Assembly (NCBI GenBank): GCA_017545485.1
Contig: JAFWMY010000016.1
Location: 1-62,984, forward strand
From: Candidatus Saccharimonadota bacterium
Lineage (GTDB): Bacteria; Patescibacteriota; Saccharimonadia; Saccharimonadales; Saccharimonadaceae
Length of the DNA stretch: 62,984 bases
Direction: 5' to 3'
The notes under the pieces were generated by a model. The model had not been told where the DNA came from and made no database searches. It was given only the letters and a program-made list of their open reading frames with translations. Shown here piece after piece: positions 35,430 through 42,389 of this stretch (the first letter of the stretch is position 1; each line of letters begins with the position of its first letter). A program made the position numbers and the translations under genes.

Positions 35430-38400
35430 TTATAGCGGATTATTTGGGCATCCTCTACCTTGGATACATACGCCTGATGTATTGAAAGTAAAGTTTTCGC
35501 CATCGATTGTTTGAGCTCCGGTAACCATTCTACCATTTTTCCCGAGATAGAACCATTGTTCTTTACCGTTGTAATCAATTAATTGCCATTCTGTGGCCAT
35601 TTGACCGTTATTGAAGAAGTAAAACCATGATTCTTGGTTATTATAACTAAGCTTTTTCCAGCCCGTATCTAATTTGCCGTTTAAATTTGCATGTGCCCAA
35701 AGAATTTCCTGATTAGCAGTTATGCTATACCATTTGCCATTTGAATCGGCAACGGGGTTAATTATTAATCTTGAGTTGTTTAATGCATTATCATAATCTG
35801 ATATTATATAATTATTATTTTGGAATGAAACGACAATAGCATTTTCTGCAGGGCCAGTAACATATGTCTTCGCGCCATTATTATTGTGCGCTTTGATGAT
35901 TGCTGAAAGTTGTCTTGAATGGCTGGTTACGGTAAATGGCACACTTGGTACTATAATATCATGTGGTTTTATAGAATTAATGAAAGAATCTGAAGTTGAT
36001 GTAGTGCCACCATGGTGGCCCATTTGTAATATATCTATTGTTCCTACTTCTTCTGCAACTTTTGTTTCATCTATGATTTCCATATCACTAGCGAATAGAG
36101 TTTTTTTGTCGCCAATTTGGGCAAGAATAACAATTGAATTATCGTTCTCCTTTTTTGGTATACCATTATTGTTTAGCTCGTTGCCGCTGGCTTTTTCTGT
36201 ATTATAAAGCCTAATTGTGTAGTCGCTAAGATTGAAAAGAACGTTTTTATCGTCTGTTACTTCTTTTAATGTGGCTCCAGCATTTCTCATTGCGTTGATA
36301 GCACGATTATAGAAGGTACTATTATACCAGTCGGGGACAGTCGTATCTTCCACTGTCTCAGTGTATTGACGATAGTAGTAAGTAGTGTTGGAGTTGACAA
36401 ATCTTTGTGCGATTAGTGGCATGCCGCCAATATGATCAGAGTGTGAATGCGAACCTATCACAAAATCTAGCTGTTTAACACCAAGCTTGTTCAAAAAAGT
36501 CACTACTTGGCTAACGGTGTATTTAGGATTAGACACGCAGGTTGATTCGCTCATACATGTTGTAACATCTGAATCATTTTTTGGATAGAGTGGCGATGAT
36601 GCGTCAATGAGGCCATAATGTCCATTGCTTTCTAATAAGAAGGCATTACTAGTCCCTGTATTTATGAAATATATTTTTCCTTGGCTTCTCCAAATAGCAT
36701 AAATAGTTTTGTTGCCTGAAATTGTGATACTATTACCGGGTTGATATTTTGCGGCGGTAGCGGAAGTGGAATCCGCCCAGCCTAGGAAGGTATAACTGCT
36801 ATAGGTTGGTTTTGTAGAACCAATTATAATTGTACAGCTAGTTGCGGTACCTTTTATTGTGCAAGTTTGTGCATTGGGAGCGTTGATGCCGCCATTAGCA
36901 TTAAAGAATAAACTGTAAGTAGTTGTTTTAATCTCCCAAATGGCATAAATAGTTTTGTTGCCTGAAATTGTGATACTATTATTTGGTTGATATGTTGCAG
37001 CAGTAGCAGAAGCTGAATCCGCCCATCCTTTAAAGTTGTAACCAGCACGGGTTGGGATATTGGAGTCGATTTTGATTGCACAGCTGGTTGCAGTACCTTG
37101 AACGTTGCAAGTTTGAGCGCTAGGGGCATCTATTCCACCATTGGCGTTAAAGGATAATCTATGGGTATTTGTTTTAATTCCCCAGACAGCATAGAGGGTT
37201 TTGTCAGATGAAAGTGTAATGTTATCGTTTGGTTGATATTTCGCGGTGGTAGCGGAAGCAGAGTCTGCCCAACCTAGAAAATTATAACCATTACGAGTTG
37301 GTTCGTTGGACGTAATAACAATTTTGCAACTTGTCGCTGTGCCTTTAATGGTGCAATTCTGTGTGTTGGGTGCGTTAGTGCCATTATTGGCATTAAAAGA
37401 CAATGTGATATCATTAGTGATTATCTCCCAAACAGCATAAATAGTTTTGTTGCCTGAAATTGTGATACTATTACCAGGTTGATACTCTGCTGTAGTAGCG
37501 GAAGCAGAGTCCGCCCAACCTTTAAAGATATAACCAGCGCGAGTTGGTTCGGTGTTTGGTATGGTAACTAAGCAAGATGAAGCACTATTTTCAGTAGAAC
37601 ATGTTTTTTTGCTTGGGGCGTCAGTGCCATTATTGGAATTAAAGGAAAGTGTATAGGTATCTGGTGTTATGACATTGGCTAGGGCAAAATAATTAATTGT
37701 GACTCCTGAATAAGCGCCATCTGGTAAATCTGGGCCGATATTGGCTCCATAGTAGATTGAAGTGGTGTCTTTTTCTGATGTGGAGGCATCAGAATCTTTA
37801 ATAATAATTGCATTTTCTTGGCTGGTTGGAATTGGCCCCCAAACTTCCGAATCTTGATCATTTGGGACTACTGTTGAAACTCCCCACGTGTTTTCTTCGA
37901 GTGCGGTATTGCTGAGCTGTGTCATTATTATTTTATCTGTAGAATTTTCTGGCGATTTTATTTCAGTGCTTGTAGCATACATGCCTAATGTATATCCATT
38001 ACTGGTCCCATCTATGATTGTAATGTCGTTTTGAGTGTAATTAAATGCTGGTTGGTCTTGTTCACGATTAATTGTGAGATTAATGTCACTAGTAATAATG
38101 GATAGACTATCGTTAGGTGAGGCATTGGTGATTTCTGTTTTTTGATTGTTGTTTGTAATATAAAAAATGGAAAGTATAGAAAGAGGGAGAATTAAGATGG
38201 ATAAGATTTTATTTCGTCTAGACGATAAACTAAATTTTTTACTAGCTGAAAAGATACGATGGTTATGATGAAAATGTTTGTAAAGTACTATTATTAATAA
38301 TGGTATGACAATAATGAAAAATGCCAATGATGGACTGATGTTGCTAGGATTGTCATGAATATATTGCCCTGTATCAGGAACAGAGATTTCTGGCTCATCG

Positions 38401-38480
38401 GAGGGTTGAGGAATAATATCTGAGGAATCTGGATTTCCTTCATTACTGTTAGTGTTTAAAAATACTTTTATTTCGCTCAT
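35430..38480 (-). CDS. Pce-like surface protein: B-repeats, metallo-beta-lactamase domain and choline-binding-type repeats
   Basis: 1016 residues. Order: a Ser/Pro/Glu-rich start with VPDTG at 34-38, a membrane helix (51-67), basic segment, a second helix (about 90-107), a beta-rich region, four InlB B-type repeats (about 275-605), a metallo-beta-lactamase fold with HSHSDH at 678-683 and later QMGHHGG, and C-terminal cell-wall/choline-binding repeats (WFYFFNNGQMATEW, WFYLGKNGRMVTG). The enzyme domain and its repeats recall pneumococcal Pce/CbpE, a phosphorylcholine esterase (KIYFINTG..FLLESNGHYGLID). It probably faces outward and could act on wall or teichoic-acid decorations of a host cell. 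Substrate is inference. Confidence 0.85.
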   Translation of the reverse strand: MSEIKVFLNTNSNEGNPDSSDIIPQPSDEPEISVPDTGQYIHDNPSNISPSLAFFIIVIPLLIIVLYKHFHHNHRIFSASKKFSLSSRRNKILSILILPLSILSIFYITNNNQKTEITNASPNDSLSIITSDINLTINREQDQPAFNYTQNDITIIDGTSNGYTLGMYATSTEIKSPENSTDKIIMTQLSNTALEENTWGVSTVVPNDQDSEVWGPIPTSQENAIIIKDSDASTSEKDTTSIYYGANIGPDLPDGAYSGVTINYFALANVITPDTYTLSFNSNNGTDAPSKKTCSTENSASSCLVTIPNTEPTRAGYIFKGWADSASATTAEYQPGNSITISGNKTIYAVWEIITNDITLSFNANNGTNAPNTQNCTIKGTATSCKIVITSNEPTRNGYNFLGWADSASATTAKYQPNDNITLSSDKTLYAVWGIKTNTHRLSFNANGGIDAPSAQTCNVQGTATSCAIKIDSNIPTRAGYNFKGWADSASATAATYQPNNSITISGNKTIYAIWEIKTTTYSLFFNANGGINAPNAQTCTIKGTATSCTIIIGSTKPTYSSYTFLGWADSTSATAAKYQPGNSITISGNKTIYAIWRSQGKIYFINTGTSNAFLLESNGHYGLIDASSPLYPKNDSDVTTCMSESTCVSNPKYTVSQVVTFLNKLGVKQLDFVIGSHSHSDHIGGMPLIAQRFVNSNTTYYYRQYTETVEDTTVPDWYNSTFYNRAINAMRNAGATLKEVTDDKNVLFNLSDYTIRLYNTEKASGNELNNNGIPKKENDNSIVILAQIGDKKTLFASDMEIIDETKVAEEVGTIDILQMGHHGGTTSTSDSFINSIKPHDIIVPSVPFTVTSHSRQLSAIIKAHNNNGAKTYVTGPAENAIVVSFQNNNYIISDYDNALNNSRLIINPVADSNGKWYSITANQEILWAHANLNGKLDTGWKKLSYNNQESWFYFFNNGQMATEWQLIDYNGKEQWFYLGKNGRMVTGAQTIDGENFTFNTSGVCIQGRGCPNNPL
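36697..36735. repeat. 39-bp direct repeat, copy 1 of 3, inside the B-repeat gene
   Basis: Starts GCATAAATAGTTTTGTTGCC. Identical copies start 246 and 738 bp further on; 246 bp is one 82-residue B-repeat. Confidence 0.85.
36943..36981. repeat. 39-bp direct repeat, copy 2 of 3
   Basis: Identical to the copy at 36697 over its full length. Confidence 0.85.
37435..37473. repeat. 39-bp direct repeat, copy 3 of 3
   Basis: Identical to the copy at 36697; 492 bp from copy 2. Confidence 0.85.
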
Positions 38481-39455: not shown

Positions 39456-42389
39456 ATGCTTAGTTTACATAAAAAGAAAAGGATAGTGCTGTCTGTGCTA
39501 GTTACAGTGGGTGTTATTTTGCCGGCAGTTGTTTTTGCTGCAAATAGATTAGCTGTTTCTGAAGACACGCATGCGATTACATATGTGATGCCGGATGGGT
39601 ATACTGCGATGGTGGACCCGAATTTTTATGATTGCGTGGTGGCGGCATACAAGAGTACTTATCCTGCTGTGGAAATTCCGGAAACTGGTATTACTGATGA
39701 GCAATTGTTAACTATAGATACACTCGTTTGTAATAGCCGGGTGGATGGGGAAAAGATTACCGATACTACTGGGCTAGAAAAAATGCCAAGAATGGCTTAT
39801 CTTGATCTTAGTTCTAATAATATTTCAGCGATTGATGTTTCGTCTTTTAGTAATTTGACATTTCTCAATCTTCACTCTAACCAACTTACTTCTATTGATG
39901 TTAGGAATAATTACAGTTTAAGTAACCTTTATTTGAATAATAATAATTTATCATCGCTTAATCTTTCAAATAATCTATATTTGCGGGAACTTGATGCTAG
40001 CAATAATAACCTTTCTTCTTTGGATCTTTCAAATAATACTAGGCTTTCTTCTATTAAATTAGAACATAATAGATTACAATATCTTAATATTTCTAATACT
40101 TCTTCTTGGTTGAGGCTGCTGAATATTAATGATAATCAAATTGGGTTCTTAGACGTTTCTAATAACTCTAATTTAACCGATTTTATGGCAGATAATATTA
40201 TCTTTTATGCAGGGATTGAGCCTACTATTTCCAATGGTAATTATATTTATGATTTAAGTGGACTAAAATTTGTTGAGGATGGTGAACACGAAGGGTTTAT
40301 TGTTGATTTTTCAATAACTAATACTGAAAATTATAGTTATGATGAAGTAAACAAAATATTAACTGTTAATAACCCAGAAGGAGCTGGTCTTTATATACAA
40401 ATAGAAGGGGTTGATAATAGGAATGAAGGTAGCTTTACTTATAAGTTTGGATTGCCATATATACTAACTTATGATTTGAATGGTGGAAGTGGGGATTTTG
40501 GGCCAGCATTATGCTATCCAAATGTCGTTGATACTCAGATTTGTTTAATGGAGATTGCTGATGGTTTGCCGACAAGGGATGGCTATAATTTTATGGGTTG
40601 GGTAGACCCAGGTGATGCGGGTACTGGTTCATATTTTCCTGGTAATACGATTAGTATGTATCAGAGTAAGACAATTTATGCTGAATGGGAATTAGAGACG
40701 ACGACTGTTGGTTTAGACTTTAATTTAAATGGCGGTGAAGGTAGCGTGGCTGCACAGACTTGTGAGACAGATGTTGAACATCCAAATTGTACTGTAACTA
40801 TTCCTAATACTGTTCCAACAAGAGACGGTTACAATTTCCTTGGTTGGGCGAATTCATCTACGGCGACTGAGGCTGTTTATCAACCTGGTAGCTCAGTCTC
40901 ACTTTCTCAGAATAAAACTGTGTTTGCAGTTTGGGGGTTAATAACTAATACTGCAAGTTTGAATTTTGATTTGAATGGTGGAACGGGGGCTGTGGCTACA
41001 CAGACTTGCACACTTGATATTGACCATCCTACTTGCAATGTGAATATTCCTACTACTGCTCCGACGAGAAATGGTTATAACTTTGTAGGTTGGGCAGAGA
41101 CCGATACAGCTACTTCGCCTGCGTACAATACCGGCGATAGTGTGACTTTAAGTGGGAATAAGACGCTTTATGCGGTTTGGCAAATTATTTCTACGACAGT
41201 TAGTTTGAATTTTGACTTAAATGGTGGAGCTGGAACTATAGCTGCACAGACTTGTGAGACAGATGTTGAACATCCAAATTGTACTGTAACTATTCCTAAT
41301 ACTGTTCCAACAAGAGACGGTTACAATTTCCTTGGTTGGGCGAATTCATCTACGGCAACCGCGGCTGTTTATCAACCCGGTGGTTCGGTTTCGCTCAATC
41401 AAAGCAAGACCGTTTATGCAGTGTGGGAGTTAATCACTACTACGGTGAGTTTAAGGTTTGACTTAGATGGTGGGGAAGGAGCTATAGCCACGCAAAGCTG
41501 TGAAATTAGCGTAATTAATCCTAGTTGTAGTGTCTATATCCCTACTAGTTTCCCGACAAAAGAAGGAAATGAGTTCCTGGGCTGGGCACTTGAGAGAGGA
41601 GAAACAGTAACTAGTTATATGCCAGGTGAATTTGTGGATCTTACTAGTAATAATACTTTCTATGCTGTCTGGTCTCCAGTTTATACTTTAAGCTATGATA
41701 ATAATGGCGGTGTTGGTGTTCCTGACTCAACAAGTTGTAGTTTATACGGCGACGTTAAGGGAGGATGTGAAGTAATGGTTGGATCATTCGTGCCAACGAA
41801 AGATGGTTATCATTTCTTAGGCTGGGCCGATAGCGCTACGGCAACTACACCTGATTATCGTGTCGGTGATAGTATTTCGCTTTTGGAAGATAAGACTATT
41901 TATGCTGTCTGGGAAATGGTTGACACAACGGTAAGTCTGAGTTTTGACTTAAATGGTGGAGAAGGAGAAGTAGCTGAACAAAGTTGTATTATAAACGTAA
42001 ACAATCCTTCTTGTGTAGTTACTATTCCTGAGGCTACACCAACTAAGGAAAATCGTGAATTCTTAGGTTGGGCAGATAATGCGAGTGCTTCAGAAAAATC
42101 CTATGTTGCTGGTGACGAAGTAACTTTGGATAGTAGTAAGATTGTATATGCCGTTTGGGATGGCGCTGGGGATGATGATGAACCGGGTGATGATACACCT
42201 TCTGACGATGAGCCTGCTGATGATGGGGATGATATACCTGTGCCAGACACCTCTGCTCCTGATACGGGTGCAAATATCGGCAATAACGGTCTTGGTGCTG
42301 TGTTTACAGTAGCAATATTGCCTATGCTAATTGGTGCTGTTTATATTGTATTTCGTCGTAATAAGAAATCACATTTGAAATTTGACTAA
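39456..42389 (+). CDS. LRR and InlB B-repeat surface protein with C-terminal anchor
   Basis: 977 residues after GAAAGG. A signal peptide (KKKRIVLSVLVTVG to VFAAN, about residues 5-30) is followed by leucine-rich repeats from about 110 to 245 with the unit LxxLxxxxNxLxxL in an internalin-like form. Seven B-type repeats of about 82 residues (each ending with TIYAVWE-like) span 335 to about 905. An acidic Asp/Glu/Pro spacer, APDTG near residue 935, a hydrophobic helix and RRNKK tail form the anchor. The anchor resembles sortase signals, with PDTG in place of LPXTG. It probably mediates adhesion to a host cell. Confidence 0.87.
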   Translation: MLSLHKKKRIVLSVLVTVGVILPAVVFAANRLAVSEDTHAITYVMPDGYTAMVDPNFYDCVVAAYKSTYPAVEIPETGITDEQLLTIDTLVCNSRVDGEKITDTTGLEKMPRMAYLDLSSNNISAIDVSSFSNLTFLNLHSNQLTSIDVRNNYSLSNLYLNNNNLSSLNLSNNLYLRELDASNNNLSSLDLSNNTRLSSIKLEHNRLQYLNISNTSSWLRLLNINDNQIGFLDVSNNSNLTDFMADNIIFYAGIEPTISNGNYIYDLSGLKFVEDGEHEGFIVDFSITNTENYSYDEVNKILTVNNPEGAGLYIQIEGVDNRNEGSFTYKFGLPYILTYDLNGGSGDFGPALCYPNVVDTQICLMEIADGLPTRDGYNFMGWVDPGDAGTGSYFPGNTISMYQSKTIYAEWELETTTVGLDFNLNGGEGSVAAQTCETDVEHPNCTVTIPNTVPTRDGYNFLGWANSSTATEAVYQPGSSVSLSQNKTVFAVWGLITNTASLNFDLNGGTGAVATQTCTLDIDHPTCNVNIPTTAPTRNGYNFVGWAETDTATSPAYNTGDSVTLSGNKTLYAVWQIISTTVSLNFDLNGGAGTIAAQTCETDVEHPNCTVTIPNTVPTRDGYNFLGWANSSTATAAVYQPGGSVSLNQSKTVYAVWELITTTVSLRFDLDGGEGAIATQSCEISVINPSCSVYIPTSFPTKEGNEFLGWALERGETVTSYMPGEFVDLTSNNTFYAVWSPVYTLSYDNNGGVGVPDSTSCSLYGDVKGGCEVMVGSFVPTKDGYHFLGWADSATATTPDYRVGDSISLLEDKTIYAVWEMVDTTVSLSFDLNGGEGEVAEQSCIINVNNPSCVVTIPEATPTKENREFLGWADNASASEKSYVAGDEVTLDSSKIVYAVWDGAGDDDEPGDDTPSDDEPADDGDDIPVPDTSAPDTGANIGNNGLGAVFTVAILPMLIGAVYIVFRRNKKSHLKFD
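40749..40864. repeat. 116-bp direct repeat, copy 1, in the LRR/B-repeat gene
   Basis: Identical over 116 bp to 41241-41356; starts GCTGCACAGACTTG. Neighbouring B-repeats have diverged far more, so this identity looks recent. Confidence 0.9.
41241..41356. repeat. 116-bp direct repeat, copy 2, in the LRR/B-repeat gene
   Basis: Second copy, 492 bp from the first. Recombination would remove exactly two B-repeats (164 residues) in frame. Confidence 0.9.

Follow-up and report, generated by a model that had tools for sequence, protein, structure and literature searches.

A predicted membrane-anchored protein of a Saccharibacterium that joins a Pce-like metallo-beta-lactamase domain to choline-binding-type repeats

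Gene organization and domain order

The window (the whole stretch of 62,984 nt analyzed here) was found to carry, on the minus strand at 35430..38480, an intact single ORF with an ATG start encoding a protein of 1016 aa. Its predicted order is a membrane anchor, a beta domain, four InlB B-repeats, a Pce-like metallo-beta-lactamase (MBL) domain and choline-binding-type repeats, and all of the features of this protein described below lie on the same strand. The B-repeats, of the InlB/Listeria-Bacteroides type (aa 276-597; 36690..37655), were identified by Pfam as four Flg_new/InlB stretches with an E-value of 1.8e-48 (163 bits against a cut-off of 27 bits). They are followed by the MBL domain (aa 599-897; 35790..36686), which was recognized by Pfam (Lactamase_B, E 3.6e-8; Lactamase_B_2, E 4.3e-8) as well as by sequence comparison, tree and fold model. 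The choline-binding-type repeats lie at approximately aa 915-938, 939-963 and 964-987 and run into a degenerate tail that extends to aa 1016 (35433..35738).

An HMM search for the esterase and cell wall-binding domains had been put forward as a check with the original prediction. In this search Lactamase_B was matched at the E-value given above. Choline_bind_3 (aa 939-987) reached 19.8 bits with hmmscan, and 33 bits when the frame was searched at genome level with the neighboring repeats taken in, against a cut-off of 27 bits. Distant NCBIfam matches to ComEC and to PspC/PspA tails were all far below their cut-offs. The protein encoded by the adjoining gene (39456-42389, plus strand) is internalin-J-like: it combines leucine-rich repeats with seven B-repeats, and its C terminus is an APDTG-helix-basic tail.

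N-terminal anchor and surface display

The protein begins with a tail (aa 1-44; 38349..38480) containing a VPDTG motif (aa 34-38), before which no signal peptide was seen. The tail is followed by two transmembrane helices predicted from hydropathy, the first (aa 45-72; 38265..38348) leading into a basic loop (KHFHHNHR...) and the second spanning aa 90-111 (38148..38213). Other Saccharibacterial proteins of the genus were inspected, and those with a stretch extending over this region have the same layout, including a P[DN]TG close to their beginning. The region as a whole (aa 1-111; 38148-38480) has the layout of a sorting signal, placed N-terminally and lacking a signal peptide, and the source genome (G000) has two sortase-family genes. 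Next to the anchor is a probably beta-rich domain (aa 120-272; 37665..38123) which, like the anchor, is common to other surface proteins of the genus; the anchor/beta module was matched in 26 of 60 genomes, in some only in the beta domain. By positive-inside reasoning from the sequence, the enzyme part would lie outside the cell, with the two helices holding the protein in the membrane of the Saccharibacterium and the beta domain and four B-repeats serving as a stalk.

Relationship of the MBL domain to Pce and ComEC

Pneumococcal Pce (CbpE) is an enzyme that clips phosphorylcholine (ChoP) off cell wall polymers. It was also the top match of the protein among solved structures in a phmmer search (2bib; E 7.3e-27 over aa 599-1002), a likeness far above chance. 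The second Pce structure, 1wra, followed with an E-value of 5.3e-23, and the next-best MBL was that of ComEC (E 7.5e-8). The local resemblances that had been noted from the sequence, namely KIYFINTG, FLLESNGHYGLID, LGVKQLDFV and SHSDHIGG, do align with Streptococcus pneumoniae Pce in the same order, their counterparts being KIHFINV, IILESNGHFAMVD, L(G/S)VQKLDFI and THSDHIGN/G, respectively.

An AlphaFold2 model of aa 599-1016, with 38 related sequences as input, was obtained with a pLDDT of 92.9. On alignment of this model with VIA-align, the highest scores were for 2bib (Z 31.9, model positions 1-408) and 1wra (Z 31.7), ahead of the ComEC C-terminal domain (CTD) 9ic4 (27.9) and RNase J (18.6), and in Foldseek, too, Pce ranked above the ComEC CTD, which came second. 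By both sequence and predicted fold, Pce is the closest relative of solved structure. The original prediction of a Pce-like MBL domain and cell wall repeats behind four B-repeats on a patescibacterial surface is supported, the protein being predicted to be membrane-anchored.

Six positions of the MBL domain were compared with residues of Pce which we take to be its metal ligands. These are the H, H, D and H of the motif HSHSDH (aa 678-683; 36432..36449), Asp799 (36084..36086) and one residue of the pair His822-His823 (36012..36017), which aligns with the His228-230 stretch of Pce. H678, H680, D682, H683, D799 and H823 are invariant across the 38 related sequences and correspond to H85, H87, D89, H90, D203 and H229 of Pce, where the numbering is that of the 2bib chain counted from the alignment and H823 adjoins a one-residue gap. 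All six are also kept in an ortholog only ~50% identical, which speaks against a catalytically idle adhesin in which the MBL fold is a scaffold and host binding falls to the B-repeats and cell wall repeats. Such an adhesin would be in keeping with the internalin-like B-repeat protein encoded next door and with the frequency of B-repeats in the genus, but it is considered quite improbable.

The motif is a less certain guide to substrate: many ComEC-like MBLs also carry HxHxDH, so that the motif by itself is not diagnostic of Pce activity, and this counts against a Pce-type reading. A second possibility that was weighed is a surface nuclease resembling the ComEC CTD, which would supply a nucleotide-dependent epibiont by degrading DNA outside the cell or from the host, and in which the repeats would act as an adhesin only. 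It draws on the place of ComEC as next-best match in both fold and sequence among solved structures, and on the NCBIfam model ComEC_Rec2, which matches the domain although far below its cut-off (58 against 190 bits). However, the domain does not group with ComEC-type nucleases. Patescibacterial ComEC-like MBLs are set apart from it with full support (100/100), and in a second, quicker tree a ComEC-type CTD with HxDxDH falls on the far side. ComEC has Asp in place of one motif-II His (PMC8579336), where the present protein has HSHSDH, and Pfam detected no transporter domain in it. The nuclease is regarded as improbable.

Choline-binding-type repeats

In the published choline site, the first and second aromatic residues of one repeat are combined with the third of the next (PMC4929436). 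The absence of choline-site aromatics had been named as grounds for abandoning the original prediction, but most of the cage aromatics appear to be present, as judged from sequence and from the strand register of the model rather than from geometry: W917/W928 with Y954, W941/W952 with Y978, and W965/W976 with F997 or F999. In the model strands W941 faces Y954 and W952 faces K943, which is the register derived for the consensus. In the model, then, three successive repeats keep a Trp-Trp pair with a Tyr (twice) or Phe (once) from the following repeat, in the register of the published cage.

The repeats are nevertheless not canonical. They are about three in number and have 24 aa against about 20 in the standard repeat, each hairpin being two residues longer per arm in the model strands (four in all), and their score below the hmmscan cut-off counts against a Pce-type reading. 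They also match a glucan-binding repeat family (NCBIfam search) and a streptococcal glucosyltransferase (solved structures). The wider repeat family includes glucan binders, and the long altered repeats of CbpF do not bind choline (PMC4929436). These features would suit the same surface enzyme acting on another wall or capsule phosphodiester (e.g., glycerol-phosphate or sugar-phosphate units), with repeats that bind glycan and not choline. The retention of the Trp-Trp-Tyr cage pattern and register, and the position of Pce as closest relative of known structure, argue against this substrate.

A C-terminal tail (35433-35500) with paired cysteines, in which GRGC or GPDC comes after GVC, is common to the Saccharibacterial proteins and those of two Bacillota (L068 and L036).

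Origin of the enzyme part

Relatives of the protein were sought by scanning 84,980 species genomes. After the Saccharibacterial ortholog, the nearest were from Erysipelotrichaceae (L068, 39%; L036, 37%) and Clostridia (L037, 39%), followed at ~25-32% by Bacilli, Lachnospiraceae and streptococcal Pce. Pfam identified six B-repeat stretches, an MBL domain, and both Choline_bind_3 and Choline_bind_1 above cut-off in L068, while L036 and L037 have Big_2 domains in place of the B-repeats. As L068 has the same order, the arrangement of B-repeats, MBL and choline repeats is not unique to the CPR. On a reading of its ORFs, L068 adjoins rpsO- and pnp-like genes, and so gives no impression of being a misplaced contig from a Saccharibacterium.

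In a maximum-likelihood tree of 80 rows, the protein and its ortholog (100/99) join L068, L036 and L037 (94/88), and next Lachnospiraceae and other sequences (96/87). A place in the other half of the tree, with Coriobacteria and Romboutsia, was obtained for streptococcal Pce with modest support. The comparison with streptococcal Pce was thus favorable to the original prediction in that Pce and the related Bacillota proteins, and not ComEC-like MBLs, are the ones with which the domain groups, but not in that it does not join the streptococcal enzyme itself. The Streptococcus-like donor that had been suggested is rejected by this tree and by an AU test in which the two Saccharibacterial sequences were forced to group with Streptococcus/Gemella (p 0.008), the nearest relatives outside the CPR being the rumen/gut Erysipelotrichaceae and Clostridia at 37-39%.

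The B-repeats share 46% identity with those of the neighboring gene, 48% with those of the ortholog and ~28% with those of L068, and from their sequence they look home-grown in the lineage. Rumen or gut Bacillota are the probable source of the enzyme and repeat part, whereas the anchor and B-repeats belong to a type native to the lineage.

Genome context and distribution in the genus

The source bacterium is probably an epibiont of other bacteria, and its genome has a size of 885 kb in 26 contigs, with an estimated completeness of 99% and contamination of 4.1%. The only full-length ortholog in the genus, in G010, is intact and 49% identical. The G010 protein is itself identical to one (L035) of Candidatus Saccharibacteria bacterium isolate Tb.RUG.419, which makes the window Saccharibacterial, and from this relative a rumen or gut source for G000 also seems likely. 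In both genomes the gene lies directly upstream of truB and close to recX and a PRC-barrel gene, though in rearranged order, which favors inheritance from a common ancestor over misassembly. Contamination is considered unlikely given this shared position, the presence of recA, recX, truB, pnp and lepA on the same contig, and the similar G+C content of the gene (37.6%) and the window (38.6%).

The full form is rare, being found in two of 100 genomes of the genus. Among these 100, the enzyme part was matched in G000 and G010 only, together with a more distant MBL without repeats in G089, and choline-type repeats were found in G000, G010 and G009. The protein of G089, a related Saccharibacterium (L015:1186-3723, minus strand), has a signal peptide and an anchor of the PNTG-helix-helix type. 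Its MBL falls in the same broad clade, but it has no choline repeats, and a LicD match is present in that genome. The protein of G009, another Saccharibacterium (L127:730-1779, plus strand), is small, probably secreted and mostly made up of choline-binding-type repeats. No relative was found in the viral contigs searched, and the matches listed in the plasmid search were to the B-repeats or were weak ComEC-like ones.

LicD and the proposed role

No match to LicD (PF04991), the ChoP transferase family, was found in G000 or G010. A search for the choline kinase family gave one sub-threshold match in G000 and none in G010, and no confident LicA-type kinase was found in either genome. LicD was present in 17 of the 19 searched genomes in which the MBL match runs into repeats and in four of six with the MBL only, compared with backgrounds of 10/100 in the genus and 43/146 in the order of one relative, G497. 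Comparison of 17/19 with 43/146 gives a Fisher p of 6e-7, though the carriers span more taxa than the background and are not taxonomically matched to it, and the association of LicD with MBL-repeat genes is suggestive only. LicD-family proteins may also transfer other groups.

The frequency of LicD among carriers is a further point against a substrate other than ChoP, while the genomes of L068, L040 and G580, in which no LicD match was found, favor such a substrate and count against the Pce-type reading. On balance, a different phosphodiester joined to glycan-binding repeats is judged rather unlikely. We give about an even chance to a di-metal phosphodiesterase displayed on the surface, belonging to the Pce-like MBL and choline-repeat type and acting on wall polymers of a host or neighbor. 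Its MBL domain would hydrolyze a terminal phosphodiester, most likely ChoP, on these polymers, and its C-terminal repeats would grip the surface of the host or neighbor. As LicD is absent from G000 and G010, the target, if the enzyme acts on ChoP, is probably foreign and borne by another cell.

Known oral Saccharibacteria have hosts belonging to the Actinomyces group. The oral species Actinomyces viscosus and A. gerencseriae, of this group, have Lic-1 genes and are reported as ChoP-positive by antibody (PMC10434233), and in co-culture the host of the oral TM7x showed higher expression of its own choline-binding proteins (PMC6166536). It is conceivable, if doubtful, that an epibiotic Saccharibacterium with a ChoP esterase and a choline-binding module, and without ChoP decoration genes of its own, docks on and trims host phosphorylcholine. 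Such an activity could bear on attachment, on whether choline-binding proteins of the host are released, or on competition over the host.

The protein bears on how Patescibacteria recognize and alter their hosts, and a literature search found no earlier account of such a protein, whether Pce-like or choline-binding, from Saccharibacteria themselves. With its Pce-like enzyme, its wall-binding repeats and a source genome in which LicD has no match, it points to a specific and testable candidate for a host ligand, namely phosphorylcholine on wall polymers. It also appears to be a case in which a surface enzyme passed from gut Bacillota to a CPR lineage, where it was fitted to that lineage's own anchor.

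Comparison with known systems

S. pneumoniae Pce/CbpE (2bib, 1wra) resembles the present protein in the succession of an MBL domain and choline-binding-type repeats, in fold (Z ~32), in the compared metal ligands and in the local motifs. It differs in sequence (24-26% identity) and in belonging to a separate clade, in having 10 repeats instead of about three long ones, and in having a cleaved signal peptide in place of a membrane anchor, beta domain and B-repeats. The C-terminal MBL nuclease domain of ComEC (9ic4) is alike in fold (Z 27.9) and in most ligand positions, but it has HxDxDH, is attached to a transporter domain and lies on the other side of the tree. InlB B-repeat surface proteins share the Listeria-Bacteroides repeats, four of which form the presumed stalk here, while the present protein has an enzyme domain and no leucine-rich repeats, which are found in its neighbor. 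The uncharacterized MBL-choline-repeat proteins of gut/rumen Bacillota (L068, L036, and L037) have the same C-terminal layout with a GVC-type tail at 37-39% identity, but begin with a simple N-terminal hydrophobic segment instead of the Saccharibacterial anchor, with Ig domains of the Big_2 type in L036 and L037.
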